A DNA stretch of 55,705 bases from a virus. The DNA lies in IMG/VR virus record IMGVR_UViG_3300001460_005756, positions 1,572 to 57,276 of that record. The stretch is one strand, 5' to 3'. Numbering within the stretch: position 1 is the stretch's first letter; each line of letters opens with the position of its first letter. Below the pieces are notes generated by a model. It had not been told where the DNA came from, ran no database searches, and saw only the letters and a list, made by a program, of their open reading frames with translations. The translations under genes and the position numbers were made by a program. Below are positions 15,057-38,718 of this stretch, piece by piece.

Positions 15057-15749
15057 ATGAAACTAGTGATAAAATTTCCTTCTCGTAATCGTCCTGAAAA
15101 ATTCAAACAAATTTTAACCAAATATATTTCTTTACTTTCTGGTAAACATGAAGTATCATTTATCATAACTTTAGATGAAGATGATTCGACAATGAATACA
15201 CCAAAAATGAGAATGTGGTTAGATGAGTTAGCACAGGCTAATGATATACAATATTTCTACGGTAACTCAAAATCTAAAGTAGAAGCTTGTAACGCAAATA
15301 TGGACGGTGCGGAGGGTGATGTTCTTTTACTGATTTCAGATGATATGTTCCCCGTCCAAGAAGATTATGATGATATCATCTATAGGACATATCAAAACAC
15401 CTTCCCTGATTATGATGGGGCAATAAAGTTTAATGATGGAATAAGAAAAGATCCATTGATGACATTGCCTTGTTTGGGATGGAAGCTCTATGAGAGATTT
15501 GGATATATCTACCACCCAGATTATACTTCTGTGTTTTGTGATAACGAGCAAACTTCGGCGTGTATGCTAATGGGTAAGTTTGCAGTTAGTGATATTTGTA
15601 TTGCAAAACATCTTTGGATTCCCGGAAACCACGATCAAGCTGATGAGTTACATCAAAGAAATGACAGTGGTGAAATGTATGAAAAAGATGGAAAGGTATT
15701 TGAAGAAAGAAAAAATAATAACTTCGGGGTTCTTAGAGAAGTTAGTTAG
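15057..15749 (+). CDS. Glycosyltransferase, GT-A fold (family 2-like)
   Basis: The 230-residue product starts MKLVIKFPSRNRPEKF, a typical GT-A opening strand and NDP-sugar loop, followed by IITLDEDD (about 35-42) and the metal-binding acidic pair in LLISDDMFP (about 91-99). A late WIPGNHDQADELHQRN segment supplies further conserved His and Asp. It is the first gene of the sugar island. A TTG six bases upstream is in frame; the ATG at 15057 is preferred. Donor and acceptor cannot be told. Confidence 0.7.
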   Translation: MKLVIKFPSRNRPEKFKQILTKYISLLSGKHEVSFIITLDEDDSTMNTPKMRMWLDELAQANDIQYFYGNSKSKVEACNANMDGAEGDVLLLISDDMFPVQEDYDDIIYRTYQNTFPDYDGAIKFNDGIRKDPLMTLPCLGWKLYERFGYIYHPDYTSVFCDNEQTSACMLMGKFAVSDICIAKHLWIPGNHDQADELHQRNDSGEMYEKDGKVFEERKNNNFGVLREVS

Positions 15750-15758
15750 GAAAATATA

Positions 15759-16436
15759 ATGAAAACATATACGTTCTACTCCGACTCACACAAACAAATA
15801 TTAGATGATTATTACCTCAAGTCGTTTCCTTATGAAAAAGATCTTGAGCTTGTTATTAGAAACATCCCACAGGACTGTCCTTCGGCATCATTTATGCACG
15901 CCGGATGGATGTCTGCGATGAGAAAAAAGATGGAATATGTTGTAGATTCTATCTTAGAAACAAAAGGTCGAGATGAATTTTTTGTACATTCTGATTGTGA
16001 TATAATTTTCTTCGATAAGTTCAAAGATAATATCATCGAAGAAATTGGTGACAATGATATAGCTTGTATAGATGATGTAAATATGCTTTGTGCTGGTTTC
16101 TTTATTGCTAGATCAAACGATAAAATTCTCAATCTATTCGAAAACGTCCTGAAAAACATGGATAACTTTAGTCAAAGTGGTAGTGGTGATCAAATAGCAA
16201 TGAATTACTATATCAAAGATATGGGAATAAAAGCAAAACCACTGGGTAAACGATACCACAACGTTTTTCATTCTTTAGAAAAAGAATGGACGCGAGATAT
16301 TGCATGGAATTTTGATGTACCAAAAGACATCATTATGCATCATGCTAACTTTACTAGAGGCATTGAAACTAAGATGTCTCTCATGGATATAATGGTAGGT
16401 AAATGTGATTATACTAAAACCCCGGCAGGGACATAA
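15759..16436 (+). CDS. Nucleotide-sugar transferase-like protein (GT77-type fold)
   Basis: The 225 residues carry FFVHSDCDIIFFDKF (about 74-88) with a D-x-D metal motif. LCAGFFIARSN (about 109-119) and GSGDQIAMN (about 143-151) follow, the order seen in the nucleotide-diphospho-sugar transferase family that includes plant xylosyl/galactosyl transferases. A late LGKRYHNVFH completes the resemblance. AGGA precedes the ATG. The stop lies 32 bases inside the next gene if that gene begins at its GTG. Confidence 0.6.
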   Translation: MKTYTFYSDSHKQILDDYYLKSFPYEKDLELVIRNIPQDCPSASFMHAGWMSAMRKKMEYVVDSILETKGRDEFFVHSDCDIIFFDKFKDNIIEEIGDNDIACIDDVNMLCAGFFIARSNDKILNLFENVLKNMDNFSQSGSGDQIAMNYYIKDMGIKAKPLGKRYHNVFHSLEKEWTRDIAWNFDVPKDIIMHHANFTRGIETKMSLMDIMVGKCDYTKTPAGT

Positions 16437-17205
16437 GGGCGATTCTTTTAGAGAGTTGCTAGATATTTGGGAATCTGAAGGGTTGTGTAAACTTGGAGAC
16501 AGCCCAGATGGATTTTGTTGGGTAGATAAGCCTGGCAAAATTTTATTATACGATCATCCAAGAGTTGATGATCGACCAGTCTCTCCTTTTGAATATGGAT
16601 TATTTGGTAATACGATTCCTAACTGTGCAGACGACAGATGCAAGCCTTGGATTTTTTGGGGAAGAAAACCAAAGCTAATAGAAAAATATAAAAAAGAATT
16701 TAGACGTTCTTACCAAGACAGAAAAATCGAAAGTATTTTCTTGGGTAAGATAGAAAATCAAGTACAATTAGATAAAAGATCATCACATGATTGGTCTGAT
16801 TGTATAGAACTGTTTAGTATGCCCGTTATGATGGGGGACACCAACAGGTGGCCTTACACACAAGAAGAGTATTTGGAAAAACTTTCCTATTCTAAATTTG
16901 GATTATGTCTGCCAGGCTACGGTCCAAAATGTAATAGAGAAATAGAGTACATGGCTTTTGGTGTGGTTCCAATCGTAACACCCGGTGTGGATACTACCTA
17001 CTATAATAAACTGGTAGAAAATACACACTTTATAAAAATCTCTTCTCCAGAAGAGATAGATAAACTAAGAGAAGTCAAAGAGGAAGAGTGGAAAACTCTT
17101 TCTGATAATTGCATATCTTGGTACGAGGAAAACTGTTCCTCATATGGATCCTTTTCAACTACATGTAAAATTTTAAATGAGGTATTTCAGTATGAATGCG
17201 AATGA
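16405..17205 (+). CDS. Exostosin-like (GT47/GT-B type) glycosyltransferase
   Basis: The 266-residue product contains FGLCLPGYGPKCNREIEYM (about 165-183), the exostosin-type donor-binding block of the form L-x-G-x-G-x-x-x-R-x-x-E. AFGVVPIVTPG follows, where a GT-B enzyme binds the nucleotide sugar. IFWGRKPKLIEKY (about 82-94) fits the N-terminal Rossmann half. The GTG at 16405 overlaps the previous gene by 32 bases; the first in-frame alternative is a TTG near 16456, so the exact start is uncertain. Confidence 0.6.
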   Translation: MIILKPRQGHKGDSFRELLDIWESEGLCKLGDSPDGFCWVDKPGKILLYDHPRVDDRPVSPFEYGLFGNTIPNCADDRCKPWIFWGRKPKLIEKYKKEFRRSYQDRKIESIFLGKIENQVQLDKRSSHDWSDCIELFSMPVMMGDTNRWPYTQEEYLEKLSYSKFGLCLPGYGPKCNREIEYMAFGVVPIVTPGVDTTYYNKLVENTHFIKISSPEEIDKLREVKEEEWKTLSDNCISWYEENCSSYGSFSTTCKILNEVFQYECE

Positions 17206-18016
17206 AGGTAATGAGAAATTAAAGCAAATGGTTTTATCAGGTGAAGCTTTTTGTGCAGGAAAGATTGGAAATTCTGAGCAGTTGGCTCTTATTCAAAATC
17301 TAATGGAAGCACCCACTTGGAACCAGCAGGTGATTTATTTTATCACTGTTATTGCTGGAGTTTTTCCCGAAGATCAGGATACACTAAACGAGTTTGCTGA
17401 AGTATTTTATGAGTGTTTAGATCAAGTTGATCTCTCTCCAAAGTGGTTAGATCATGATGAAGAAATTCTCACCGCGAGAAATCCAGAAGTTCTCTTGACT
17501 GAACTTAGAGGTCTTGAACCATACTACCACGATAACCCTTGGACAGAAGCTCTTGCTGGTAAAAAGGTTTTGGTTATGTCACCATTTGCCAAAACAATTA
17601 AAGAGCAGTATGATAACAACAGGGAGTCGCTCTGGGAAGATGGAAGAGTTCTTCCTGAGTTTGATTTAGAAGTTGTAGAAACACCACAGTCACATTACTT
17701 AACCGAATCCCCTTACGAGAATTGGTTTGAGGGACTGGATGATCTCAAGTCGAAGATCGAAGACTCTGACGCTGACGTTGTTCTCACTGGTTGTGGAGCT
17801 TGGTCACTTCCTCTTGCTGTACATGCGAAGAGATTCAACAAGCAGGGTATTCACATAGGTGGTCCAACACAGATTCTCTTTGGTGTTAAGGGTGGTAGAT
17901 GGGATACTCACCCAATCATTTCAGAGTTCTATAATGAAAACTGGAAAAGGCCATCGGCAGAAGAAACTCCTGAAAAAGAAAAAACAGAACTCGTAGAAAA
18001 CAGTTGTTACTGGTGA
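17192..18016 (+). CDS. Hypothetical protein, possibly GT-D-type glycosyltransferase
   Basis: The 274 residues have an N-terminal FCAGKIGNSEQLAL (about 20-33) similar to the R-x-G-D/N-x-E opening of GT-D fold enzymes. Later VVLTGCGAWSLPLAVHAKR (about 197-215) and HIGGPTQILFGVKGGRWD (about 223-240) match the glycine-rich and HIG blocks of that fold. The C-terminus ENSCYW is unusual. ATG 17192 is preferred because GAGG at 17179-17182 is well spaced; ATG 17177 is in frame. The family assignment is tentative and rests on order of motifs only. Confidence 0.45.
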   Translation: MNANEGNEKLKQMVLSGEAFCAGKIGNSEQLALIQNLMEAPTWNQQVIYFITVIAGVFPEDQDTLNEFAEVFYECLDQVDLSPKWLDHDEEILTARNPEVLLTELRGLEPYYHDNPWTEALAGKKVLVMSPFAKTIKEQYDNNRESLWEDGRVLPEFDLEVVETPQSHYLTESPYENWFEGLDDLKSKIEDSDADVVLTGCGAWSLPLAVHAKRFNKQGIHIGGPTQILFGVKGGRWDTHPIISEFYNENWKRPSAEETPEKEKTELVENSCYW

Positions 18017-18024
18017 GGTGAACT

Positions 18025-18867
18025 ATGAAGATATGGGATTGCTTTAATTTTTATAATGAGTTAGACTTACTAGAGCTTAGACTTGAAGAGTTATATGATG
18101 TCGTAGATCATTTTGTTCTATGTGAAAATACCGTCACTCACATGGGTGATGATAAACCTCTTTACTTCGAAGAAAACAAAGAGAGATATTCTAAGTACCT
18201 CGATAAGATCGTTCATGTTGTGGTTGATGACATGAAAGGTAAAGGAAGAGCATACATTGACATAGAACAAAAGAATAGATGTATAGACGGTTTGAGTAAC
18301 TGTACTCGTGATGATCTTATTCTTTATTCTGATTTAGATGAGATACCAATCAGAAGTAAACTAAAAGAAGTAATAGAGGAATATAAAGTAACTAAACAAC
18401 CCTTTTGTCTACAGGGTAACTTCCATTGCTATTTCTTGAATGGTATTAGATCTAGTGAAGGCGAATTCCAAAAGTGGAATGGACCTACCGGGATATCACA
18501 CGCCACTCTGGAAACTTCAGGTTTAACACTAAACCAGTTGCGTGACTTGAGAGATAAACATCCTCAGATAAAAATCTTTAAGGAAACGGCGTGTCACCTT
18601 ACATACATTGGAACTCCTGAGCAGATAGAAATTAAGTTGAGGAACTGGGGACATGCAGTTGATCTGGGTAAGAATTTCATGGAGGGTGTTGATGATGTGC
18701 CTGCAAAAATACAATCTTTCATAGACGAAGGTAAGTTTTTGTTCAATGAACATCGAGTTAGATATGTTGATCCAGATGAAATACCAATGTTAGAATCTTA
18801 CACAGAGAACAAAGAAAAGTATTACCATCTTATTTCATCTTACAATCCGTCTCTAAAGGAGACTTGA
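18025..18867 (+). CDS. Glycosyltransferase family 17-like protein
   Basis: GT17 includes the bisecting N-acetylglucosaminyltransferase MGAT3 and many bacterial and viral relatives. The 280 residues open with MKIWDCFNFYNELDLLELR, the GT17 signature. KPLYFEENKERYSKYLDKI (about 47-65) and the acidic YSDLDEIP (about 107-114), expected to hold the metal and nucleotide, follow. Gene spacing is eight bases from the previous stop, with GAGGTG as ribosome site. A more divergent relative lies at 22488. Confidence 0.78.
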   Translation: MKIWDCFNFYNELDLLELRLEELYDVVDHFVLCENTVTHMGDDKPLYFEENKERYSKYLDKIVHVVVDDMKGKGRAYIDIEQKNRCIDGLSNCTRDDLILYSDLDEIPIRSKLKEVIEEYKVTKQPFCLQGNFHCYFLNGIRSSEGEFQKWNGPTGISHATLETSGLTLNQLRDLRDKHPQIKIFKETACHLTYIGTPEQIEIKLRNWGHAVDLGKNFMEGVDDVPAKIQSFIDEGKFLFNEHRVRYVDPDEIPMLESYTENKEKYYHLISSYNPSLKET

Positions 18868-18868
18868 T

Positions 18869-19486
18869 ATGACACATGGGCAACTTAAACAGTATGGATC
18901 CGGTACATGTGCATGGGTGGTGGATCCGGAATTAATAAACCCCCACTCTGTTGTTTATTCGTTTGGGGTTGGCGAAGATATTTCTTTTGATGACGATCTT
19001 TATAAGAATCACGGTTGCACTGTTTATTTGTTTGATCCCACTCCTCGCTCAGTCAAGTACTATTCCGATCAGGACACACCTTCTTCTTTTGTTTTTGAAA
19101 CAATAGGTCTTTCAGATCATGACGGAGATCTTTTGATGGAACAACCAGATCGGGCTGAGTGGGTTTCCTACAGAGAAGTGATTGGTGAATCTAACACTAC
19201 CATACGGTGTGAAGTAAAGAAGTTAAAAACTATAATGGAATCGAAAGGTCATAGCCATATCGATCTTCTTAAGATGGACATAGAGGGATCTGAATTTTCT
19301 GTTGTTGAGGATATGATTAAGGATGAAATATTCCCAACACAACTACTAGTAGAATATCACGAAAGATTTGATGATTATTCAGTTGAAGATAAAGAAAAAT
19401 CTGTTAAACTATTAGTTGATAATGGTTATGACATTGTATGGACAAACATGCAAGAGTTTACATTCGTCAGAGGAGAACCAACTTGA
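18869..19486 (+). CDS. FkbM-type SAM methyltransferase
   Basis: FkbM-family enzymes O-methylate sugars and polyketides. The 205 residues have the FkbM layout: VYSFGVGEDISFD (about 29-41) in place of motif I, YLFDPTPRS (about 53-61) with the acidic residue that contacts SAM ribose, and the hallmark LLKMDIEGSEF (about 133-143). Context among glycosyltransferases supports sugar O-methylation. The ATG lies two bases past the previous stop with AGGAG ahead. It overlaps the next gene by four bases. Confidence 0.7.
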   Translation: MTHGQLKQYGSGTCAWVVDPELINPHSVVYSFGVGEDISFDDDLYKNHGCTVYLFDPTPRSVKYYSDQDTPSSFVFETIGLSDHDGDLLMEQPDRAEWVSYREVIGESNTTIRCEVKKLKTIMESKGHSHIDLLKMDIEGSEFSVVEDMIKDEIFPTQLLVEYHERFDDYSVEDKEKSVKLLVDNGYDIVWTNMQEFTFVRGEPT

Positions 19487-20199
19487 GTAGCCTTACAGTA
19501 ATATTGACAGTTTGGAAAAGAAATTATCTTGAAGATCAGCTTCAATCAATTTATAATCAGTCAATCCAGGCAGATGAAATTATAGTTTATCAAAATGATT
19601 CTCACATTGATATCTCGGATCTTCGGGAAAGGTATGGATTTACTCACATACACAATGTGAATAGAAACTTCAAATTCCACGGCAGATTTACTCTTCCACT
19701 TATTTTAGACACAGACTACGTTGCAATTTTCGATGACGATACTATTCCTAATCCCGGATGGTTGGAGTACGCGGTAAATAAATCAAAACAACTTAACTCC
19801 ATTATAGGTGCAAACGGAAGATACTCTCATATTAAGGTTGGTGGCATTGATTTTGGTGCATTCAATACTGAAGATGTCGAGGTTGACTTCGTTGGACACT
19901 GTTGGGTTTTCAAAAGGGACTGGGTGAAAAACTTCTGGAGAGAGGATCAAGTTACTCTCGATAACGCAGAGGACATTCAGTTTTGTGCATCACTCAAGGT
20001 AAATGGTGACATAAGAAGTTTTGTCCCTGCACAACCAAAAGATAACCCTGCTATTTGGTCTGATCCCCACAACTGTGTTTTAGGTGATGATGATTTGGCT
20101 TCATATAAACAACAAGGTCATTCTGATCTTAGAGAAAATGTAATGGGTTACTGGAAAGATAGAGGCTGGAAACCTGTTGCTCTGGAGAAGTCAAAATGA
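19483..20199 (+). CDS. Glycosyltransferase, GT-A family 2-like (TTG start)
   Basis: The product starts SSLTVILTVWKRNYLEDQL, a textbook family 2 opening strand. It continues with QADEIIVYQND (about 28-38) and VAIFDDDTIPNPGWL (about 85-99), which carries the D-x-D. AEDIQFCASLK (about 164-174) fits the catalytic-base and acceptor region. A TTG at 19483 with AGGAG at 19471-19475 gives a four-base overlap with the FkbM gene; no ATG fits, and upstream in-frame starts would add a long overlap. Confidence 0.72.
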   Translation: MSSLTVILTVWKRNYLEDQLQSIYNQSIQADEIIVYQNDSHIDISDLRERYGFTHIHNVNRNFKFHGRFTLPLILDTDYVAIFDDDTIPNPGWLEYAVNKSKQLNSIIGANGRYSHIKVGGIDFGAFNTEDVEVDFVGHCWVFKRDWVKNFWREDQVTLDNAEDIQFCASLKVNGDIRSFVPAQPKDNPAIWSDPHNCVLGDDDLASYKQQGHSDLRENVMGYWKDRGWKPVALEKSK

Positions 20200-20915
20200 T
20201 AATCATACCAGATTTTACGCCCTGTGGTTTTGGGAATAAAGTTCTCTACTACAATAACATGAGACAGTTAGCAGCGAAACAAGGTGTTGGTTATGCATGT
20301 CCCCCTTGGGAAGGACTAAGTGTCTTTGATTTACCTCTGGAAAATATTACACAAACAGAACCACAATATCTACCGTTCTGTTTGGGTGAAAAGTATTTTG
20401 ACTGGAAAACAATATCAACTAGAGATATTTTCAAGTTCGCAGTAGAAGAACCACCATTAATTAAAAATTCATGTGCTGTTCATTTCAGAGGAACTGATAA
20501 GTTCAGAGTGGACAAAGATGCAATTTACGTTGGACAAAAGACTCAATACTATTTGGATGCAATTGATAGACTCAAAGAAGAAGTAAACCATTTTTATATT
20601 TTCACTGATGATTTAGAAATGGATCAATTCAAAGCAGTGGTAGAGAGACTAAAGGAACTTAAGTTAGGCTATTCCTTTGGTGATAATACTTGGGATAGAG
20701 AATATTTTGCTGAAGACTTTGTTAGGATGTCGCACTGTGATTATATGATATCAAGTCCATCTACTTTTAATATTGTCGCTGGTATGGTAGGAAAAAATAA
20801 AAAGATAATTCATTCAAAAGAATGGCTAGATAACAGGAAAAACAAAAATGATCGGTTCTGGGTTGAGTTGTTAGAAAATCAAGATGAAGATTATTCAGTA
20901 TGGGAACTTATATAA
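20196..20915 (+). CDS. Fucosyltransferase-like protein (GT11/GT-B type)
   Basis: The 239 residues include CAVHFRGTDKF (about 92-102), comparable to the H-x-R-R-G-D donor motif of alpha-1,2-fucosyltransferases. HFYIFTDDLE (about 126-135) and a C-terminal MISSPSTFNIVAGMVG block (about 181-196) where GT11 enzymes bind the nucleotide follow. GFGNKVLYYNNMRQLA at the start matches G-x-G-N-x-x-F/Y. The gene at 28163 has the same architecture and seems paralogous. Donor identity is not proven. Confidence 0.6.
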   Translation: MIIIPDFTPCGFGNKVLYYNNMRQLAAKQGVGYACPPWEGLSVFDLPLENITQTEPQYLPFCLGEKYFDWKTISTRDIFKFAVEEPPLIKNSCAVHFRGTDKFRVDKDAIYVGQKTQYYLDAIDRLKEEVNHFYIFTDDLEMDQFKAVVERLKELKLGYSFGDNTWDREYFAEDFVRMSHCDYMISSPSTFNIVAGMVGKNKKIIHSKEWLDNRKNKNDRFWVELLENQDEDYSVWELI

Positions 20916-21568
20916 TGTTAAAAAGAACTGATAGAGATCATGTAATGCAAACACTCTCAGACAATCCACAATGGAACGTGGTTGATTTGGGGTGTGGTGC
21001 GAAGAGCGGATGTGAGTATGCGGATGTGTTGGTTGATCACGATGATCACACAGACAATTATCCAAATAAGAAGTTTGTCAAACACGAATTGAATTCATAT
21101 CCATATCCATTTAAAGATAAAGAATTTGATTATTGTTTTGCTAGTCATATATTAGAACATATTCATGAACCAGTTAAATTTCTCAATGAGATTGTGAGAA
21201 TATCAAAGAGGGGTTATATTGAAGTACCATCCCCCTTGTTTGATAACTTAGTTTCATCTTTTGATCCAAGAGAAGAGTTTGGACATAAGTGGTGGATATC
21301 TTTCAGTGATGCTAAGTTCACACTTCAGTTTAGACATAGGCAAAATATTTTACACAACACAATCGATATACCAGAATGTAATAAGTTATATCCTTTCTTC
21401 AGAAAGAGTATGGTTGTTGAGTTGTATTGGGAAGATCGTATATCTGCTGAATTATGCGATGATACGTATTCATACGAAGAAAAGACATACGATCTGAGTT
21501 CTGAAAGTGTGACACCATGGGTTATAGGTCAGAATATTTTGAGTAAACTTGGAATCAAATTTAACTAG
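20915..21568 (+). CDS. Class I SAM methyltransferase (Methyltransf_11 type)
   Basis: The 217 residues show a clear class I motif I, WNVVDLGCGAKSG (about 20-32), an acidic end of strand 2 at VLVDHDDH, and the post-I block FDYCFASHILEHI (about 64-76), typical of small-molecule methyltransferases. The rest is an unassigned C-terminal half rich in aromatic residues. ATG 20915 overlaps the previous stop (TAATG); an ATG 15 bases earlier is in frame. In this setting a sugar or lipid-linked intermediate is the likely substrate. Confidence 0.65.
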   Translation: MLKRTDRDHVMQTLSDNPQWNVVDLGCGAKSGCEYADVLVDHDDHTDNYPNKKFVKHELNSYPYPFKDKEFDYCFASHILEHIHEPVKFLNEIVRISKRGYIEVPSPLFDNLVSSFDPREEFGHKWWISFSDAKFTLQFRHRQNILHNTIDIPECNKLYPFFRKSMVVELYWEDRISAELCDDTYSYEEKTYDLSSESVTPWVIGQNILSKLGIKFN

Positions 21569-21576
21569 GAGCGATT

Positions 21577-25263: not shown

Positions 25264-25269
25264 GGAAAT

Positions 25270-26094: not shown

Positions 26095-26100
26095 TTTATT

Positions 26101-28159: not shown

Positions 28160-28162
28160 TTT

Positions 28163-30710: not shown

Positions 30711-31378
30711 TAGATCCACTTAAATATGATGAACAACTTTTAGATTTTGTTATGAAAAAATATAACTGCTCGGATCCTTGGGGTGTGGTAGATGTATTTG
30801 AAAAAACAATTGCAGAGTATGCTGGAAGCAAATATGCCGTCGCGGTAGACAGTTGTACCGACGCAATGTTTTTGTGTTTGAAATATCTTAAAGCAGATGG
30901 TGAAGTTACACTACCACGAAGAACATATGTTTCTGTTCCATGCACTGTTATACATGCCGGATGTACAGTCAAGTTTGATGAAATTGAATGGAGTGGTGCA
31001 TATCCACTAAAACCATATCCAGTTTATGATTCAGCCACCAGAATGACAAAGGACATGTACGTTCCCGGATCTTATTATTGCCTTTCCTTTCATCGCAGAA
31101 AGCATGTACCCATAGGGAAAGGTGGAATGATTCTGACTGACGACAAGGAAGCTTATGAGTGGTTAAAGGTAGTTCGTTATGAAGGAAGACACATGGATCG
31201 TTTATATAAAGATGATTCATTTGATACAATCGGTTGGAATATGTATATGCCCCCAGAGCAAGCTGCAAGGGGTTTGGTTCTCTTTGATAATATAAATGAA
31301 GTGAATGTAGATCTTGAGTCTTCTGGAATCCACAAGGATTTATCTGCCTATAAACTATATGAGGAATCTAACAGATGA
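30704..31378 (+). CDS. Short DegT/DnrJ/EryC1-type aminotransferase-like protein
   Basis: DegT-family enzymes aminate keto-sugars using PLP. The 224 residues retain the N-terminal core: KYAVAVDSCTDAMFLCL (about 44-60) and the PLP-lysine block CLSFHRRKHVPIGKGGMI (about 126-143, Lys near 132). GWNMYMPPEQAARGLV (about 179-194) corresponds to the G-x-N-x-R-M block. Family members have about 370 residues, so the C-terminal domain is largely missing and the usual Arg of that block is absent. It may be an inactive remnant, a partner of the full-length copy at 35057, or a minimal form. Confidence 0.6.
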   Translation: MLVDPLKYDEQLLDFVMKKYNCSDPWGVVDVFEKTIAEYAGSKYAVAVDSCTDAMFLCLKYLKADGEVTLPRRTYVSVPCTVIHAGCTVKFDEIEWSGAYPLKPYPVYDSATRMTKDMYVPGSYYCLSFHRRKHVPIGKGGMILTDDKEAYEWLKVVRYEGRHMDRLYKDDSFDTIGWNMYMPPEQAARGLVLFDNINEVNVDLESSGIHKDLSAYKLYEESNR

Positions 31379-32235
31379 AAAATAAAACTATTGGTGTTAT
31401 CGGAAATGGATTTGTTGGCGGCGCTGTTGCTAATGGATTTAAAAATTACAACCCAGTTAGAGTTTATGACAAGACGCTTTCTAGACGAACACATACAATT
31501 GATGAAACTATGAGTTCTGATTTTATTTTTGTTTGTCTGCCAACTCCGATGAAAGATGAAAACGGCGGTGATGTGGATCTAAAGTATATCATTGATTTCT
31601 TTAAGAACACTGTAATAAAGATGAGAGCTTTCGATCCAATCTATATCATCAAGTCAACAGTCCCTGTTGGAACAACTGAGTCAATCAGAAAGATACATGA
31701 CGATATTAAAGTAGTTCATAATCCTGAGTTCTTAACAGCAGCAAATGCTGATGAAGACTTCCTTAACGCAGAACGAACTGTGGTGGGTGGAGAAACAGAA
31801 CCTGCATCGGAAGTTGCAAAACTTTACATGACACATTGGCCAAAAACTCCAGTCATTGTAGTCTCGTCTGACGCATCTGAGATGATCAAGTATACGGCTA
31901 ATAGTTTTCTTGCACTTAAGGTATCTTACTTTAATATGATTTATGATTACTGTATGGCTAAGAATATTAACTTTGCGGATGTTTTAAGTGGAGTTTACAC
32001 CGACTCCCGAATCGGAGAATCCCACACACATGTTCCAGGTCCTGATGGTGATAGAGGATATGGTGGAACTTGTTTTCCCAAAGATATAAATGCAATGAGA
32101 GAAATGTTCTTGGAACAAGGACTAAATCATGATATACTGACTGCATCATGGATCTATAACAAGTCAGTCAGAGAGAATTGGGATTGGGCTACTAATCCAG
32201 CTTCTGTAAGTAAGAACTCATATGATAAGGAATGA
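31375..32235 (+). CDS. UDP-glucose/GDP-mannose dehydrogenase-family protein, short form
   Basis: This family oxidises C6 of an NDP-sugar to a uronate. The 286 residues include IGVIGNGFVGGAVANG (about 6-21), FVCLPTPMKDENGG (about 52-65), the STVPVGTT block (about 97-104), HNPEFLTAANADED and the catalytic cysteine in YGGTCFPKDINAM (Cys about 231). The C-terminal NDP-binding domain of full-length enzymes (about 390-450 residues) is missing, so substrate binding must differ or a partner is needed. ATGA joins it to the previous gene. Confidence 0.75.
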   Translation: MKNKTIGVIGNGFVGGAVANGFKNYNPVRVYDKTLSRRTHTIDETMSSDFIFVCLPTPMKDENGGDVDLKYIIDFFKNTVIKMRAFDPIYIIKSTVPVGTTESIRKIHDDIKVVHNPEFLTAANADEDFLNAERTVVGGETEPASEVAKLYMTHWPKTPVIVVSSDASEMIKYTANSFLALKVSYFNMIYDYCMAKNINFADVLSGVYTDSRIGESHTHVPGPDGDRGYGGTCFPKDINAMREMFLEQGLNHDILTASWIYNKSVRENWDWATNPASVSKNSYDKE

Positions 32236-32237
32236 TA

Positions 32238-33056
32238 ATGAAAACTAATATTATAGGTGAGATTGGTATAAACCATAACGGGGATGTTGAAATTGCAAAG
32301 CAATTGATTGACGTTGCTTGTGTTTCTGGTTGTGATTATGTCAAGTTTCAAAAAAGAAATCCAGATGTATGTGTTCCAGAAGATCAAAAAAATAAACCCA
32401 AGAGCACACCTTGGGGTGATATGACATACTTAGAGTATAAGTATAAAACTGAATTTGGTGAGGATGAGTATAAAGAGATTGATTCTTATTGTAAACAGAA
32501 GGGCATACAGTGGTTTGCTTCTGTTTGGGACAAAGACTCTGTTGACTTCATGAGTAAGTTTTCTAACACAATGAAGATTCCATCTGCCCTAATAACAGAT
32601 TTAGATCTTGTTAAGTATACCAGAGAACATTGTGAAACTCTTTTGGTTTCTACTGGGATGAGTGATGAGGAAGAAGTTGAGGCTGTTGTTGAGATTGGTA
32701 AACCAGATATAATTTTCCATACACATTCGGCATACCCATCGCCAACTAACGAGCTTAATCTAAACTACATCAAATGGCTTTCTAATAAATACCCAGCAAA
32801 ACAAATTGGTTACAGTGGACATGAGTATGGTTTAGTAACAACTTTTGCTGCTGTCGCAATGGGTGCAACTTGGGTAGAGAGACATATTACACTAGATCGA
32901 ACAATGTGGGGTTCTGATCATTTGGCTTCAGTTGAACCAATTGGTCTGATGAAACTGGTAAAAGGTATCCGAGATATAGATTCTGCTATTGGTGTTCCGA
33001 CTGCTCGGAGAGTACATCCTTCTGAATTAGACAAAAGAAAAAGTCTTAGGAAATGA
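32238..33056 (+). CDS. neuB: NeuB-family nonulosonate (sialic acid) synthase, lacking SAF domain
   Basis: NeuB condenses an N-acyl-hexosamine with phosphoenolpyruvate to a nine-carbon keto acid. The 272 residues contain GEIGINHNGDVEIAKQLI (about 6-23), DYVKFQKRN, LLVSTGMSDEEEV (about 134-146), IGYSGHEYG and WVERHITLDRTMWGSDH, which hold the metal and PEP ligands of the TIM barrel. The C-terminal antifreeze-like SAF domain of typical NeuB (about 345 residues) is absent. ATG 32238 is favoured by AAGGA six bases upstream; ATG 32232 is in frame. Confidence 0.85.
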   Translation: MKTNIIGEIGINHNGDVEIAKQLIDVACVSGCDYVKFQKRNPDVCVPEDQKNKPKSTPWGDMTYLEYKYKTEFGEDEYKEIDSYCKQKGIQWFASVWDKDSVDFMSKFSNTMKIPSALITDLDLVKYTREHCETLLVSTGMSDEEEVEAVVEIGKPDIIFHTHSAYPSPTNELNLNYIKWLSNKYPAKQIGYSGHEYGLVTTFAAVAMGATWVERHITLDRTMWGSDHLASVEPIGLMKLVKGIRDIDSAIGVPTARRVHPSELDKRKSLRK

Positions 33057-33706
33057 ATGATAAAACTGTTGCTGTGATTTTGGCTAGGGGTGGAAGTAAA
33101 GGCATCCCTAATAAAAATATAATGACAATAAAGAATAGACCTTTACTGTTCTATACAATTCAAACCGCAATAAGGTCTGGTGTTGATGAGGTATGGGTTA
33201 GCACAGATTGTTCTAATATAAAATGGGTTGCTGAACAATCAGGAGCTAGAGTTTTAGATAGACCTGAAAAATATGCAAAAGATGTTTCTTCTAGTGAAGA
33301 AGCTTTATTGCACTTTGCAGAGAATGTTGACTTTGATGTTTTGGTTTTTATACAACCCACATCACCTCTCCTAAAATCTACTGATCTATCGGCTGCTTTG
33401 GAGTTGATGGATACGAATGATTATGATTCTATATTTTCAGTTTACAGAGAACACTGGGTTCCAAGGTGGAGTTTAGATAACAAACCAATTCTATGGGATA
33501 CAGACAGAAGACCAAGAAGACAAGACATGACTGATATGTTTGTCGAGAATGGGGCCTTTTATATAACAAAGAGAGATGATTTGTTGAAGAGTGGTCTTAG
33601 ATATAGTGGAAAAATTGGGACGTATGAAATGCCCCAATCAAGAAGTTTTCAGATTGATACGATGGATGATGTTTACATAATAGAGAAACTTTTAGGAGAT
33701 TGTTAA
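33053..33706 (+). CDS. neuA: CMP-nonulosonate cytidylyltransferase (NeuA family)
   Basis: NeuA activates a sialic-acid-like sugar with CTP. The 217 residues start AVILARGGSKGIPNKNI (about 7-23), the CTP loop of the family. VWVSTDCSNI (about 47-56), FIQPTSPLLKSTDL (about 99-112) and a metal-site aspartate in FQIDTMDD near the C-terminus follow. Size and motifs match a complete catalytic domain. It overlaps neuB by four bases, so the synthase and activating enzyme are made together, a strong functional pair. Confidence 0.88.
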   Translation: MNDKTVAVILARGGSKGIPNKNIMTIKNRPLLFYTIQTAIRSGVDEVWVSTDCSNIKWVAEQSGARVLDRPEKYAKDVSSSEEALLHFAENVDFDVLVFIQPTSPLLKSTDLSAALELMDTNDYDSIFSVYREHWVPRWSLDNKPILWDTDRRPRRQDMTDMFVENGAFYITKRDDLLKSGLRYSGKIGTYEMPQSRSFQIDTMDDVYIIEKLLGDC

Positions 33707-34672
33707 ATGATTGATGTTATTATTCCCTCCCATGAAAAAGATAAAGAAACTATAGATCTCTGTATACAGGGAGTAAAAGAAAATATTCAGGATGTACGAA
33801 GAATAATTGTAGTTTCAAAGAATAAAATGACTGATAATGCTGAATGGATTTCCGAAGAAACTTTTCCTTTCACAATAAAGGATGTCGGTAACACCATAGG
33901 TTTTCATAGAAAAACTTTCAACTATTTTGGTGGACTGATTCAAACAACGTCTGCACTGGTTATTCCTGACTTGTGTGACAATGTTTTAGTTTTGGATTCA
34001 GATACAATTTTCTTAACACCAAAACAATTTGTTGATGAGGACAATAAAGTTTCTTTTGATGTTAGCTATGATGTTGCCGCCGGTGTTAGTGATCACCCTT
34101 ACTACGAACACATGGAAAAACTTATACCGGGACTGAAAAAACAAACAAATTACTCTGGTATCGTACACCACATGTTGATTCAAAAAGATATACTGCGGGA
34201 CATGTTCAATAGAGTAGAAGAATATCATAAGAAACCATTTTGGCAAGCCAACTTAGATGTAACACTGGAAGACTATAGGACTTGGCCAAATAAAGGTTCA
34301 CATGCCGATGCACCTCTTCTCCTAACCACATATGAGTTATACTTTAATTATGCTCTTAAATATTTCCCAGAGAGAGTAAAGATAGAACCAAGAAATAGTA
34401 TACTTGCATATAAAGGAAGAATGGGAGTTGACGGCGAGAATATAGAACGAGTGGGATCAAGAACAAATCTCAAGGGTAATGTAAAAATCCTCTCTGTACA
34501 AGAAGAGAGTCAATTTAAATTTGATTCGTTTGGTGACTCGTGTAATTATATTTCTAAAAGGTGTAAGGAACGTGGGTATGATACAGTTACATTCCAAAAT
34601 CATACCAGAATAGGTAGTTCCAATCACAAAGATAGGTGTGAGGCAGAAATTCATGAGATATCACAATCTTAG
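33707..34672 (+). CDS. DUF6492-like putative glycosyltransferase
   Basis: The 321-residue product has IDVIIPSHEKDKET (about 2-15), VLVLDSDTIFL (about 92-102) with the D-x-D motif, and SGIVHHMLIQKDILRDM (about 148-164), the order seen in DUF6492-type GT-A proteins. The C-terminal 90 residues are a mixed beta segment with no known match. It sits between the neuA and GNAT genes, so it may act on the nonulosonate or the acceptor glycan. Start: ATG right after the neuA stop. Confidence 0.55.
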   Translation: MIDVIIPSHEKDKETIDLCIQGVKENIQDVRRIIVVSKNKMTDNAEWISEETFPFTIKDVGNTIGFHRKTFNYFGGLIQTTSALVIPDLCDNVLVLDSDTIFLTPKQFVDEDNKVSFDVSYDVAAGVSDHPYYEHMEKLIPGLKKQTNYSGIVHHMLIQKDILRDMFNRVEEYHKKPFWQANLDVTLEDYRTWPNKGSHADAPLLLTTYELYFNYALKYFPERVKIEPRNSILAYKGRMGVDGENIERVGSRTNLKGNVKILSVQEESQFKFDSFGDSCNYISKRCKERGYDTVTFQNHTRIGSSNHKDRCEAEIHEISQS

Positions 34673-35060
34673 TTCATCCGAAAAAAGTAAAAGTCTTTTA
34701 ACAGATTTCTTAAACGACTCTGGAGATTCATTATCTAATTTTAGATATTATGAAACCAGAAGTTTAGACGTTGTTAAAAATCATGTCATGTCCTTTCTAT
34801 TGTATGATTGCAATATATGTGTTGGGTATGGTCATCTAGATAGAGAAGAAGATAATATCTGGTTAGGTATTTGTGTGAAAGAAAATTATATTGGTATGGG
34901 GTATGGTAATATTATCATGAATCAATTGACAAATTCCCATGTCGGTAGTATTCTATTAAGTGTAGATAAGGTAAACAAATCTGCTATTAATTTATACAAA
35001 AAATATAATTTTGTGGTAAAATCTGAGACAGAAGATACTTATATTATGGAAAGAAAATGA
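34653..35060 (+). CDS. GNAT-family N-acetyltransferase
   Basis: The 135 residues carry the GNAT acetyl-CoA loop ENYIGMGYGNIIMNQL (about 76-91, Q/R-x-x-G-x-G/A pattern). The characteristic late VDKVNKSAINLYKKYNF (about 104-120) follows, where N-x-x-A-x-x-x-Y is typical. In sugar clusters such enzymes acetylate amino groups made by DegT aminotransferases; the next gene is one. ATG 34653 has GAGG ahead; a GTG 15 bases upstream is in frame. It overlaps the previous gene by 20 bases and the next by four. Confidence 0.75.
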   Translation: MRYHNLSSSEKSKSLLTDFLNDSGDSLSNFRYYETRSLDVVKNHVMSFLLYDCNICVGYGHLDREEDNIWLGICVKENYIGMGYGNIIMNQLTNSHVGSILLSVDKVNKSAINLYKKYNFVVKSETEDTYIMERK

Positions 35061-36145
35061 TACCAATATATCAACCATATCTACCAAAGAAAAGTGTAGA
35101 ATATGCAAATGAAGCAATTCAATCAAATTGGATTTCTTCTCTTGGTAAGTATACTTTTATTGCAGCAGAAAAATTAGCTGAAGTTACAGAGACAAAGTAT
35201 TGTGTTCTTACAAACAATGGAACATCCGCAACACATTTGGTAACCAAAAGTCTAAAGAAAAAGTACCCAAATGTTAAGAAAATTTATGTCCCGTCTTCTT
35301 GCTTCGTTGCTGCTTACAATTGTTTACTGTATGATAATATTGGTTGGGAAATAGAAGCTGTAGATCTATGCAACGAAACATGGAATGCAGATTATAGTTC
35401 TATAGAACCAGAAAAAAATTCTGCTATAATGGTTGTTCATAACTTAGGTAACATTGTTGATGTCCTAAAACTAAAAGAAAAATTTGAAGTCCCTATCATA
35501 GAAGACAACTGCGAGGGGTTTTTTGGTAAATACAGAGGACACCAGTCCGGATCCAAATCTCTTGCATCATCACTTTCATTTTTTGGTAACAAAAACATAA
35601 CCACTGGTGAGGGTGGGGCATTTCTTACTAACGACGAAGCACTATATGACTATGCTAATAAGATAAGAGGACAAGGACAAACTGTAAAACGATACATCCA
35701 TGATGATTTGGGATATAATTATAGAATGACAAATGTACACGCAGCTATTTTGCTTGGACAATTAGAGTCGATGGATTCTGTTTATGATGAAAAGATGAGA
35801 GTCTTTGAAAGATACAAAAATAATTTAAAGAGTAAAGATGGAATAGAGTTGCAGTCCACCGAAGATAATACAGAACACTCGATGTGGATGAACGGTGTTA
35901 AGTTTAACGGTTTAGAGTGTTATGAAGATGCTGATAAATACTTTACATCAAAAGGAATTGAAACTAGACCTATGTTTTATCCTTTCGATGAACAATCACA
36001 TTTAAGAACTATACAAGGACCTAGTGAGAACGCAAGAAACCTAAGTGATAGAATAGTAATTTTTCCCTCTTATCCAGAGTTAAAAAATACTGAAATAGAT
36101 TATATTTGTTCTTGTATTCTTAAGTTCAGAGAAGAGTTAGAATAA
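35057..36145 (+). CDS. DegT/DnrJ/EryC1 aminotransferase, full length (perosamine-synthase-like motifs)
   Basis: The 362 residues are a complete PLP-dependent sugar aminotransferase: QPYLPKKSVEYANEAI near the N-terminus, TNNGTSATHLV (about 52-62), IIEDNCEGFFGKY (about 146-158) and the PLP lysine in SFFGNKNITTGEGGAF (about 173-188). GYNYRMTNVHAAI (about 220-232) follows. The S-F-F-G-N-K-x-I-T-T-G-E-G-G form resembles GDP-perosamine synthases more than LegC or PseC. It likely forms a 4-amino-sugar that the GNAT gene just upstream acetylates. Confidence 0.85.
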   Translation: MIPIYQPYLPKKSVEYANEAIQSNWISSLGKYTFIAAEKLAEVTETKYCVLTNNGTSATHLVTKSLKKKYPNVKKIYVPSSCFVAAYNCLLYDNIGWEIEAVDLCNETWNADYSSIEPEKNSAIMVVHNLGNIVDVLKLKEKFEVPIIEDNCEGFFGKYRGHQSGSKSLASSLSFFGNKNITTGEGGAFLTNDEALYDYANKIRGQGQTVKRYIHDDLGYNYRMTNVHAAILLGQLESMDSVYDEKMRVFERYKNNLKSKDGIELQSTEDNTEHSMWMNGVKFNGLECYEDADKYFTSKGIETRPMFYPFDEQSHLRTIQGPSENARNLSDRIVIFPSYPELKNTEIDYICSCILKFREELE

Positions 36146-37146
36146 TGATACTAATTTGTTACGGAACCCGTCCAGAATATTTAAAGATAAAACCTCTTAT
36201 GGAAAAACTCAAAGGAGTTGTACCATTCAAGTCAGTGTATGTGCAACAACACAACTCTCTTTTGGATGGAATTGAATCTGATGAGGTGTTGCATATAAAT
36301 TGCAACAATGAAAACAGACTGAATTGTTTGATTGCAGAAATTTCAAAAAATTTAACTGTAGAACCATACAGTCATGTTTTAGTTCAGGGTGATACAGCAA
36401 CTGCTTTTGCAGTTGCCCTTGCAGCTTTTAATAATAAGAAAAAAGTAATACACTTGGAAGCTGGTCTTAGAACAAAAAACATAGACAATCCTTTTCCAGA
36501 AGAAGCTTATCGGCAGATGATTAGCAGAATAACTTCTTTGCATCTTTGTCCCACGGAACTCGCAAAAACAAATTTACTTGTAGAGTGTTGTGCTGGTGAA
36601 GTAGAAGTTGTTGGTAATACTGTCTTAGATAATATTGAAAATCCGGATGATATAACACACGAAGATTGTGTTCTTGTGACTCTCCATAGAAGAGAAAATC
36701 ATGAAGTCATAGAAGATTATTTTACTATAATTGATTCTTTGGCAGAAAAATATTCAGACATAGAATTTATTCTTCCTATACACCCGAACCCAGAAGTTAT
36801 TAAACATGCAAGTTTGTTTAAGAACATTACACCAGTAGATCCAATGAACCATAAAGATTTGATTTCAGTCTTAAGAAAAGTCAAGTTGATCATAACAGAC
36901 AGCGGTGGTATACAAGAGGAGGCTTCTTTCTTGAGGAAAAAGGCCATAGTCTGTAGGAAGTCTACAGAAAGAAAAGAAAGTGTGGGACAGACTAGTTTTA
37001 TTTGCTCATCCCCGAGTGAACTGTCTGTTCTTTTTGATGAGTTGATAAATGATTTTAAAGTTTCGCCTGATTATGTTTGTCCGTATGGCTCTGGCGATTC
37101 ATCTGAGAAGTGTGTTGATATTTTGGCAGAGTGGATAAACAAATGA
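36145..37146 (+). CDS. wecB: UDP-N-acetylglucosamine 2-epimerase (WecB type)
   Basis: The 333 residues start ILICYGTRPEYLKIKPL, followed by LVQGDTATAFAVALAAF (about 73-89), HLEAGLRT (about 97-104), FPEEAYRQMI (about 111-120), LVTLHRREN (about 177-185) and TDSGGIQEEASFL (about 252-264). These match non-hydrolysing WecB enzymes that make UDP-ManNAc. Hydrolysing NeuC has a different D-R-Y-E and H-E-G-G set. UDP-ManNAc can be oxidised by a WecC-type dehydrogenase or, after hydrolysis, feed NeuB. TAATG joins it to the aminotransferase. Confidence 0.85.
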   Translation: MILICYGTRPEYLKIKPLMEKLKGVVPFKSVYVQQHNSLLDGIESDEVLHINCNNENRLNCLIAEISKNLTVEPYSHVLVQGDTATAFAVALAAFNNKKKVIHLEAGLRTKNIDNPFPEEAYRQMISRITSLHLCPTELAKTNLLVECCAGEVEVVGNTVLDNIENPDDITHEDCVLVTLHRRENHEVIEDYFTIIDSLAEKYSDIEFILPIHPNPEVIKHASLFKNITPVDPMNHKDLISVLRKVKLIITDSGGIQEEASFLRKKAIVCRKSTERKESVGQTSFICSSPSELSVLFDELINDFKVSPDYVCPYGSGDSSEKCVDILAEWINK

Positions 37147-37442
37147 TTTATTGTTTCGATCTTGATGGAACTCTGTGTACACAGAGAGATGGTGATTATT
37201 CTAAAGCAGAACCCTATGTGAATAGAATCGAGAAAGTTAATTCTTTATATGATTCTGGACACACGATATACATAGAAACTGCAAGGGGAACCGAGACTGG
37301 TATAGATTGGAATGAAGCGACTAAAAATCAACTCAGGACATGGGGTGTTAAGTATCACCAATTAAGAGCTGGTATTAAGTTTGCTGCAACTTACTACATA
37401 GATGATAGAGCTGTTCATGTTGATGACTTTTTTAAAGAATAG
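37143..37442 (+). CDS. Small HAD-type phosphatase
   Basis: The 99 residues have MIYCFDLDGTLC as HAD motif I (catalytic Asp6, Asp8), an IYIETARGT block (about 45-53) as motif II, and YYIDDRAVHVDDFF near the end as motif IV, with no cap domain. Capless HADs of this size occur in capsule and LPS clusters and may remove a sugar phosphate. It overlaps the epimerase (ATGA), so it is probably co-translated with it. Its substrate is unknown. Confidence 0.68.
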   Translation: MIYCFDLDGTLCTQRDGDYSKAEPYVNRIEKVNSLYDSGHTIYIETARGTETGIDWNEATKNQLRTWGVKYHQLRAGIKFAATYYIDDRAVHVDDFFKE

Positions 37443-37458
37443 AATTTAGGAGTGTATG

Positions 37459-38715
37459 ATGAGTAAAAGACCTAATGGAGTGAGTGTGACTCTTTGTATG
37501 ATTGTGAAGAACGAGACACACATCATAGAAGAGTGTCTTCGTTCAATGGCAAAGTATGTTGATCGTTATGATATTACCGACACTGGTTCTGATGATGGAA
37601 CCCCCGAGCTTATCAAAAAGGTAATGGACGAAGAGGGTGTCCCCGGAACTGTCCATCTTTCTGATTGGAAAGGCTTCGGTGATCATGGTGGTAAGATGGG
37701 ATCAAGAAGTGAAGCAATCAACAATGCAAAAGCAAGTGGTTCCAAGTATGCGTGGATGATTGACGCAGATGACTTCATCGACGGTGAATTTGAATATCCA
37801 AAAAACATGACAGCAGACGGTTATACTTTAAAGATCGGTAGAGGTGATTTTGTTTGGTGGAGAAACCAAATTTTTAATCTCGATACTGATTGGAGATACG
37901 TTGGTGTTTTACATGAGTATGCAGAGTGTAGAGGTAAACCAAATGCACACATTGAAAAAATTGTAGGGAAGTATTTAATCAATGCCCGCACGGAAGGTAA
38001 CAGAAATGTTGGCATCACTCCTATTGAAAAATATTCTCGTGACGCAGATGTGTTGAAAGAAGCTCTGGAAGAAGAACCAGAAAATCACCGCTATTGGTTC
38101 TATCTTGGACAGAGTTATTTTGATTCTCAGCAGTGGGAAAAATCAAGAGATGCTTATAACAAGAGAGCAACTCTAGGTGGATGGAATGAAGAAGTCTACT
38201 ATTCTCTTCTTCGAGTTGCAATGCTTCATGGGATCTTAGAAGATTCCTTTGAGAATATTGCTGCTAAGTTCTTAGAAGCATATCATTGCAGACCTATTCG
38301 TGCAGAACCTCTATATCTTCTTTCTAGGATGTACAGACAGAAGGATATGCCTGCGATAGCATATCTCTATGCAAAGATGGGACTTGAAATTAATTATCCC
38401 GAACATGATATTTTGTTTATTCAAGATGACATCTATAAGTATGGGTTGTTGGATGAGATTGGGGCTACTGCATATTATGCAGGAAAACCACATGTTGGGT
38501 ATCATGCATGTAAGAAACTCCTAGATTCTAATTTGATTCCTTCTGGTGAGAGAGAACGTGTTATGCAAAATATTAATTCTTATGAAAAGATTTTATCTGA
38601 ACATCACCAACAAACCGCACAGGTATCACTGCAAGATAAACTCAAAGAGAAAGAAAAGAAAGCTTCAATTAAACCAAAGACATACAAAAAGAAAAAGAGA
38701 AATTCTAGTAGATAA
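37459..38715 (+). CDS. Family 2 glycosyltransferase with C-terminal TPR-like repeats
   Basis: The 418 residues begin with SVTLCMIVKNETHIIEECL (about 8-26), then DTGSDDGTPELI and AWMIDADDFIDGEF (about 93-106) as the metal motif, typical of family 2 enzymes. From about residue 190 onward helical pairs such as NHRYWFYLGQSYFDSQQWEKS (about 208-228, not extended) look like TPR repeats, and the tail is highly basic (KTYKKKKR). AGGAG at 37448-37452 favours ATG 37459 over ATG 37456. It is the last gene of the sugar island. Confidence 0.75.
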   Translation: MSKRPNGVSVTLCMIVKNETHIIEECLRSMAKYVDRYDITDTGSDDGTPELIKKVMDEEGVPGTVHLSDWKGFGDHGGKMGSRSEAINNAKASGSKYAWMIDADDFIDGEFEYPKNMTADGYTLKIGRGDFVWWRNQIFNLDTDWRYVGVLHEYAECRGKPNAHIEKIVGKYLINARTEGNRNVGITPIEKYSRDADVLKEALEEEPENHRYWFYLGQSYFDSQQWEKSRDAYNKRATLGGWNEEVYYSLLRVAMLHGILEDSFENIAAKFLEAYHCRPIRAEPLYLLSRMYRQKDMPAIAYLYAKMGLEINYPEHDILFIQDDIYKYGLLDEIGATAYYAGKPHVGYHACKKLLDSNLIPSGERERVMQNINSYEKILSEHHQQTAQVSLQDKLKEKEKKASIKPKTYKKKKRNSSR

Positions 38716-38718
38716 TTG

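Follow-up and report, generated by a model that had tools for sequence, protein, structure and literature searches.

A glycan locus between regA and gene 43 of a T4-like phage ends in a predicted protein glycosyltransferase tied to collagen-like genes

Introduction

Bacterial O-antigen and capsule loci combine conserved flanking genes with an exchanged middle, and hold sugar-nucleotide genes together with glycosyltransferases (GTs). Here we describe a locus of comparable layout in an uncultured T4-like phage, represented by the 57,276-bp IMG/VR record IMGVR_UViG_3300001460_005756. Bases 1572-57276 of this record were analysed; this stretch of 55,705 nucleotides is referred to as the window, and all coordinates are positions within it. 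Between the replication genes regA and 43 the window carries a carbohydrate island of 31 genes (15057-38715). The last of them encodes a family GT2 enzyme with helices that resemble tetratricopeptide repeats (TPR), the GT2-TPR enzyme, and the gene directly after it encodes a collagen-like fibre protein. As in O-antigen and capsule loci, the ends are conserved and the middle is swapped, but the locus lies in a phage replication region and no flippase, polymerase or export gene was recognised in it.

Several described systems share features with this locus. In C. difficile, SgtA, which consists of a GT-A domain and TPR, is encoded immediately upstream of the collagen-like bclA3, and adds beta-O-linked N-acetylglucosamine to Thr (and to substituted Ser) of BclA3 peptides in vitro (excerpt of PMC7157674). 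The GT2-TPR enzyme agrees with SgtA, by description rather than by sequence alignment, in having a GT-A domain and C-terminal TPR and in being encoded directly upstream of a collagen-like gene. It differs in that SgtA acts on Thr-rich repeats, whereas the repeat in the window is Thr-poor and the phage enzyme ends a 31-gene block. The host recognition cluster of pelagimyophages and cyanomyophages, located between VrlC and gp14 in the structural region (excerpt of PMC7029224), is likewise a hypervariable region of T4-like phages in which GTs adjoin fibre genes; the locus in the window differs from it in lying between regA and 43, in its recurring end GTs and in its NeuB-type pathway. In mycobacteriophage virions, glycans have been found on the C-termini of capsid and tail-tube subunits (Freeman et al. 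2023, as cited in an excerpt of PMC12619734). Glycans on virion proteins are only predicted for the window phage, which differs in that the expected target is a fibre and in that it has a full locus for sugar synthesis. Neither a regA-43 glycan locus nor a GT-TPR/collagen pair in phages appears in the titles and abstract openings of the open-licence PMC papers listed by text searches on these subjects, most of which listed 10-20 of 34-683 papers. While the elements are known, their combination, the site, and the linkage in both phages and bacteria look new.

Results and discussion

Linkage of the GT2-TPR enzyme to collagen-like genes

We propose that a swappable glycan locus occupies the regA-43 interval and that the phage probably attaches its product, a strain-specific glycan, to its own fibre. 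The central element is the GT2-TPR enzyme (37456-38715, + strand; PF00535 above cut-off), a predicted protein GT at the right end of the island and the likely attaching enzyme. Its frame, which ends at 38715, abuts that of the collagen-like open reading frame (ORF) starting at 38716.

We scanned IMG/VR with an alignment of the GT2-TPR enzyme, making no use of collagen, and kept the best 80 of at least 466 relatives. Near-duplicates were removed, and runs of at least eight Gly-X-Y triplets within 3 kb were counted. Of 41 distinct viral loci with full flank, 28 have a collagen-like gene downstream on the same strand at a distance of at most 3 kb. None of the 41 carried such a run on the opposite strand within the same downstream distance, and upstream runs were seen in 0 or 1 of 59 loci, depending on the treatment of a run at the edge. 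The GT family found at the left end of the island, examined as a control, had a collagen-like gene in 0 of 45 loci downstream and 0 of 56 upstream (Fisher p 5e-13 for GT-TPR against the control), and the chance of meeting collagen expected from loci centred on regA is 2.4% per 3 kb. Because the control sits at the opposite end of the locus, it indicates that collagen is not common around GTs generally, not that every GT would fail the test. A second GT control (A3, from 26751) yielded four loci and single-protein scans yielded one and six, too few to be used.

Bacterial homologues of the enzyme, at most 40% identical to it (best 80 of at least 547), show the same association. After six glycine-rich rows were dropped, 30 of the 80 bacterial loci had a collagen-like gene, in three arrangements: upstream on either strand, or downstream. 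Examples come from Streptomyces, Bacillus, Paenibacillus and Mesorhizobium. In 50 bacterial loci for which whole-genome collagen counts were used, 20 were linked, against 1.24 expected under uniform placement. Additionally, a collagen match lies inside the regA-43 interval in 9 of the 14 phage records in which this interval is long (see below). The GT2-TPR enzyme is thus linked to collagen-like genes not only in phages but also in bacteria.

The association could be positional only, with fibre and glycan modules sharing a recombination hot spot and no enzyme-substrate relation between their products. Fibre genes and GTs do share hypervariable regions in marine T4-like phages (excerpt of PMC7029224). 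On a tree of 69 GT-TPR proteins, moreover, the states of the neighbouring gene (Thr-rich collagen, Thr-poor collagen, none) need at least 13 changes, so GT-TPR and its collagen partners are not strictly co-inherited. We still regard a purely positional association as quite unlikely. Another GT of the locus lacks the linkage, though it lies at the opposite end; bacterial chromosomes show the linkage too, with the genes arranged in three ways; in one relative (G044) GT-TPR stands with fibre-type genes and no sugar island; and for SgtA-BclA3, a pair built alike, the relation has been demonstrated biochemically (excerpt of PMC7157674). The tree itself indicates that GT-TPR mostly keeps a collagen neighbour while the repeat of that neighbour changes.

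Predicted structure of the GT2-TPR enzyme

The enzyme has an N-terminal GT2 domain of the GT-A type and C-terminal helices which match Pfam TPR models only below cut-off. Its DADD motif (D103-A-D105-D106) is invariant in 18 of 18 aligned relatives. The AlphaFold2 model has a mean predicted local distance difference test score of 90.1. When the model was used in a Foldseek search, the six best rows were all SunS and ThuS, which are peptide S-glycosyltransferases (E 6e-13 or better, best 8e-14), and VIA-align superposed it on SunS/ThuS with Z 23.2 over 269 residues at a root mean square deviation of 2.7, the next different family reaching Z 15.9. The likeness extends over the whole chain, a GT2 domain followed by TPR-like helices, but identity in the structural alignments is 13-19%, the neighbouring genes are different, and the enzyme scores far below the NCBIfam SunS cut-off. 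The model points to a SunS/ThuS-like fold; a shared fold alone is no proof of function. A sequence search of the PDB returned mostly TPR proteins, and the only recognised GT row (E 1e-5) was GmaR, the flagellin glycosyltransferase of Listeria.

A glycan on the phage's own fibre

The gene next to the enzyme (38716-40143, + strand) encodes a collagen-like fibre protein (PF01391, E 4e-28; PHROG tail fibre families). It is called from a TTG start, with an ATG at 38719, and contains 60 uninterrupted Gly-X-Y triplets at 39196-39735. Thr-poor phage collagens of loci L188-L267 often have 52-60 uninterrupted triplets, as if shaft length were set. The collagen-like gene of the window is followed by that of a modular fibre protein (40168-41721, + strand) whose C-terminal 128 residues are 70% identical to the end of the Thr-rich collagen-like protein encoded after GT-TPR in locus L261; this identity suggests that fibres of one design can swap a collagen shaft for a non-collagen one. 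The small protein encoded after the fibre gene (41718-42185, + strand) has homologues in the corresponding position in L009, L015, L020, L021 and L025, and is probably a virion or fibre accessory protein.

In the scheme that we favour, cytosolic enzymes would make activated sugars, including a nonulosonic acid in the form of its cytidine monophosphate (CMP)-sugar. The GT2-TPR enzyme would bind the fibre polypeptide through its TPR part and add the first sugar in the cytoplasm of the infected cell. The remaining GTs, the methyltransferases and an acetyltransferase would then extend and cap the glycan, and the collagen-like protein or its neighbour at 40168-41721 would enter the virion already glycosylated. 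GT-TPR would form part of the fibre module and the sugar genes an exchangeable supply, since in G044 GT-TPR and fibre-type genes occur where no sugar island was recognised. The "virion serotype" would then vary from phage to phage, and could serve to adjust receptor binding or to shield or conceal the fibre. The original prediction for this stretch, made from the sequence alone, had offered three functions for the island: building a virion glycan, altering the host surface, or blocking superinfection. The fold of the last GT, which is that of a protein glycosyltransferase, and its association with collagen-like genes favour the first, and the other two are retained as rivals.

A broader reading, which we advance only tentatively, is that the site is a dedicated "virion serotype" locus in a lineage of uncultured T4-like phages, composed of recurring end GTs, an exchangeable middle for sugar synthesis, which may include a nonulosonic acid, and a GT2-TPR enzyme that glycosylates collagen-like fibres. 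As the enzyme-collagen pair recurs in bacterial chromosomes, GT2-TPR would then be a general prokaryotic collagen glycosyltransferase family. The position of the enzyme beside collagen genes offers an inexpensive and concrete test of the purpose of such islands; it points to a probable acceptor and leads to the prediction that prokaryotes have a family of enzymes which modify collagen. If this is true, whole glycan loci pass between phages in the way that O-antigen loci pass between bacteria, with a bearing on host range, on recognition by defence or immune systems, and on glycosylated collagen-like materials.

A number of observations weigh against fibre glycosylation by this enzyme. Among the 41 distinct viral loci, 13 have no collagen-like gene within 3 kb of GT-TPR. 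The collagen matches of three relatives (G004, G013, G015) lie outside the regA-43 interval, and no collagen match was found in two others (G014, G029). No collagen-like gene was present in the stretch examined in 50 of the 80 bacterial loci, the six dropped rows included. The best NCBIfam row of the enzyme, TIGR04195 SunS (E 1e-4), reaches 21.3 bits against a cut-off of 350; the enzyme thus has the SunS fold but is not a SunS equivalog. Finally, Thr occupies 1.7% of the Y positions in the collagen repeat of the window and Ser none, so the acceptor pattern of SgtA is missing, and the labelled distinct viral loci hold 34 Thr-poor and 10 Thr-rich collagens. For comparison, Thr makes up 74% of Y positions in the bacterial neighbours and 34-87% in the Thr-rich phage relatives.

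Glycosylation of the repeat on Thr exactly as in BclA3 is accordingly not supported. The collagen-like fibre protein is predicted to be either the acceptor or the carrier of the acceptor; should Thr be the residue that the enzyme uses, the window phage must have its acceptor outside the repeat. The modular fibre protein at 40168-41721 is another candidate acceptor. Collagen may also be glycosylated after hydroxylation of lysyl or prolyl residues, as in mimivirus. We considered this route because the island encodes oxygenases. In the window repeat, Lys accounts for 8.3% of the Y positions and Pro for 5.0%. A weak match of one oxygenase to the NCBIfam "sporadic carbohydrate cluster" points to a role on sugar rather than on protein.

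Alternatively, the GTs and sugars of the island could alter host lipopolysaccharide or another host glycan, blocking adsorption by other phages or debris-bound progeny, and the fibre genes would adjoin them because both are receptor-related. Two further points against a fibre target belong here: the GT-rich fibre regions of pelagimyophages have been read as modifiers of the host O-chain (excerpt of PMC7029224), and soluble GTs can also act on host glycolipids. The gene content resembles bacterial O-antigen or nonulosonate clusters, and its turnover fits receptor arms races equally well. On the other hand, a simple hydropathy scan, run without a positive control, found membrane-helix-like segments in 0 of the 36 interval proteins of the window and in 2 of 322 proteins from 13 records, and no flippase, polymerase or polyprenyl-phosphate (lipid-linked) starter family is among the Pfam matches of the island's 31 genes. 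The terminal GT, with its protein-glycosyltransferase fold, is linked to collagen-like genes in bacteria as well. A soluble pathway with a protein-type GT beside a fibre gene suggests a cytoplasmic protein target, which it fits better, although a soluble GT could also act on lipopolysaccharide precursors. Modification of the host surface as the main role, the strongest of the rival readings, seems unlikely to us, and glycosylation of the fibre is preferred.

A late promoter at GT-TPR was also considered. It is not supported in the window, where the enzyme's own gene lacks the ATAAATA motif and the motif is not enriched (12 found against 21.9 expected); one copy stands 25 bp ahead of the ATG of 40168-41721 and resembles a late promoter. 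Across relatives (L188-L267) ATAAATA was found upstream of 24 of 61 distinct GT-TPR genes, often at a distance of about 34 bp, compared with 31 of 273 interval ORFs. It ranks highest among 21 letter permutations upstream of GT-TPR, with other A/T 7-mers raised too, and it lies near the called start in only 8 of 49 collagen ORFs. GT-TPR may thus head a late transcription unit in many relatives, though not visibly in the window.

Gene content of the island and the sugar pathway

All 31 island ORFs lie consecutively on the + strand, as had been predicted, and the identification of the block as a carbohydrate island well settled in the phage is judged right. The estimate of about 14 GTs is plausible, though unproven. 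Eight exceed Pfam cut-offs (PF03407, two GT17, three GT2 and two GT11), a ninth at 15057 is a PHROG glycosyltransferase, and about five more (16405, 17177, 24577, 25270 and 33707) are GT-like by inspection only, that at 24577 with a GT29 match below cut-off. Three S-adenosylmethionine-dependent methyltransferases were found as predicted, one of them below its Pfam cut-off. For the two predicted oxygenases the result is divided: 27524 exceeds the PhyH cut-off, and 30000 has only an NCBIfam match below cut-off (30.8 against 150 bits). The enzymes expected to make, activate and epimerise sugars were recovered by Pfam, NCBIfam and PHROGs.

The first gene after regA is the left-end GT (15057-15749, + strand; PHROG 14945 glycosyltransferase). 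The first half of the variable middle (15759-30000, + strand), as annotated by Pfam and PHROGs, encodes GTs (PF03407, two GT17, two GT2, two GT11), methyltransferases (FkbM, Methyltransf_11 and a weak one at 26101), an epimerase/dehydratase (21577), a HAD phosphatase (23227), a nucleotidyltransferase (23864), the PhyH oxygenase (27524) and further ORFs without a family. A PDB sequence search with the ORF at 28996-30000 gave no match. The second, sugar-making half (30000-37442, + strand), annotated by Pfam, NCBIfam and PHROGs, begins with a probable 2-oxoglutarate oxygenase (30000), a compact DegT aminotransferase (30704), a UDP-sugar dehydrogenase (31375) and NeuB (32232), continues with a CMP-sugar synthetase (33053), the ORF at 33707, a GNAT protein (34638) and a DegT/LegC-like protein (35057), and ends with a UDP-N-acetylglucosamine 2-epimerase (wecB, 36145) and a PHROG "phosphoheptose isomerase" (37131).

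The NeuB-type synthase (PF03102, E 1e-64) and the CMP-sugar synthetase (PF02348, E 5e-26) both exceed their cut-offs, and the PDB relatives of NeuB are sialic and pseudaminic acid synthases. Sequence matches thus support a pathway of the nonulosonic acid type (sialic, legionaminic or pseudaminic), while an exact sugar is unsupported. Matches to the NCBIfam equivalogs specific for one acid (NeuB_NnaB, PseI, PseF, LegC, LegB) are all below cut-off and the 2-epimerase exceeds the cut-off for wecB, not NeuC. Three enzymes of this half are short. The compact DegT (30704-31378) has 224 residues and is probably functional, since it is 76-83% identical in two relatives; the UDP-sugar dehydrogenase (31375-32235, 286 residues) matches the N-terminal and central domains only; and NeuB (32232-33056, 274 residues) ends soon after the NeuB domain.

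Oxygenases and many GTs could instead act on the DNA of the phage itself, as happens in T4 and its relatives. Weak matches to a pyridoxal-phosphate enzyme and, below cut-off, to a DNA methylase at 7818-10159 hint at base modification, and DUF1599, "nucleotide modification associated", is matched below cut-off at 43055. However, a thymidylate synthase/dCMP hydroxymethylase (PF00303) was found in 0 of 18 records, all possibly fragments; a sugar pathway of this size, NeuB included, exceeds what DNA glycosylation is known to need; and GT-TPR is tied to fibre genes. We consider a DNA target very improbable, and the fibre remains the preferred one.

The regA-43 interval across relatives

We compared the interval in 47 relative records, contigs of at least 20 kb picked by hand from 160 loci that had been found through similarity to gene 43 or regA (best 80 of 537 and best 80 of at least 595 matches). 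Both genes are present in 18 of them, which makes 19 records with the window's own. The interval measures 10.9-30.6 kb in 14 of the 19 (28.3 kb in the window; the near-identical contig G001 included) and 1.2-2.0 kb in four, and the gene order differs in one. A glycan locus, with differing contents, occupies the site in 13 of the 19, again counting the window and G001; as the records were hand-picked from best-ranked loci, this share is no census of T4-like phages. A one-off insertion is rejected on this count. The site is a feature of the lineage in the very sense in which the original prediction had spoken of a core feature.

That prediction had called so long a block unusual in a T4-like genome. 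It is indeed not seen in four named cultured phages, but it is not peculiar to this phage either. The gap between regA and 43 is 1.4-1.8 kb in the cultured cyanophages S-T4, S-SKS1 and S-SRM01, and 5.8 kb in P-SSM2, where it holds purL, hsp20, purM and nol, with no glycan genes annotated. Match positions place the two genes about 5.2 kb apart in S-SSM6b and about 1.3 kb apart in Bellamy; regA was not found in the first 50 kb of HTVC008M. The comparison with T4 therefore makes an insertion here look odder than it is. Relatives of the terminal GT were detected by tblastn (E 1e-5) in 8 of 50,697 phage records, and relatives of NeuB in 3.

GT2 genes are concentrated in the interval. In the 13 distinct long-interval records it accounts for 31% of bases and contains 29 of 29 GT2-family matches (E at most 0.001; three of them below the Pfam cut-off), and in the six records longer than 70 kb it accounts for 21% of bases and yet holds 13 of 13. 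Among 73 interval ORFs from three of these records, the Pfam families counted most often are GT2 (9) and epimerase (8). Of the window's 36 interval proteins, 67% have partners of at least 30% identity in G035 and 53% in G014, as against 11-19% in ten other records. Of 62 distinct loci of the left-end GT family with room upstream (best 80 of 214), 58 have the GT no more than 200 bp from regA, and this gene is present in only 7 of 12 relative intervals. GT2-TPR was found in 11 of the 12 by ORF comparison and in the twelfth, G033 (L189), by tblastn; dUTPase is matched in all 12 and a DUF1599-like gene in 11. The middle of the interval is thus swapped while its ends change less.

GT-TPR as a fixed right end of the sugar block holds for most records and fails in G044 (L183). 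There the interval is 10.9 kb long and GT-TPR comes first after regA, followed by fibre-type ORFs, two of them with Gly-X-Y runs, then dUTPase and DUF1599; no other GT2, no epimerase and no recognised sugar island are present in this interval. Separately, a distant homologue of the epimerase at 21577 (22-27% identity) lies between genes 45 and 44 in L086, L094, L095, L111, L112, L121 and L138, and the 45-44 junction in several relatives appears as a second, smaller site for sugar genes.

Borders, assembly and other genes of the window

The replication genes left of the island run in the order 45 (from 12246), 44 (from 12953), cpn10 (GroES-like, 13900-14199), 62 (from 14183) and regA (14550-15050, + strand; PF01818, E 5e-38), the last forming the left border of the locus. 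The cpn10 gene, on which the original prediction was silent, lies between 44 and 62 also in several relatives. On the 3' side of the island the collagen-like, fibre-like and small genes are followed by the conserved right border (42489-43381, + strand), comprising a dUTPase (42489; PF00692 above cut-off) and a DUF1599-like gene (43055; PF07659 below cut-off), and by the DNA polymerase gene 43 (43374-45920, + strand; PHROG 262, 1066 bits). From the end of regA to the start of gene 43 the distance is 28.3 kb, in line with the 45-44-62-regA order and the gap of about 28 kb noted before. The gaps within the island are at most 13 bp. Overlaps of 1-4 bases, said to join most neighbours, are seen at only 9 of 30 junctions when longest-ORF starts are used; 12 overlap by more than 4 bp and 9 have gaps of 0-13 bp.

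We found no sign of an assembly join inside the island, a possibility that the original prediction had raised. A 70.5-kb contig, which may stem from the same sample, contains the same stretch and is colinear with the window, at a constant offset of 201 bp at the match positions compared. This colinearity, together with the interval genes shared with G035 and G014, which form blocks of like order with some blocks moved, leads us to reject an artefact of assembly. The best-ranked named phage match of gene 43 is Synechococcus phage S-T4 (54%). A psbA-family match was found in 0 of 24 records, which may be fragments, and cyanophage identity is unsupported.

Three other parts of the window deserve mention. 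Between genes 46 and 45 (7818-10159), an ORF with a weak PALP match below cut-off overlaps a DNA-methylase-like ORF, also below cut-off; both have about 64-75% identity in many relatives, and the two could form a base-modification pair. A SET-domain protein (5373-6086; PF00856 above cut-off) is encoded between genes 47 and 46. Finally, two neighbouring ORFs (48577-49632 and 49617-50408) are primase-like by inspection, the second without a Pfam match, as if gene 61 had been duplicated or split.

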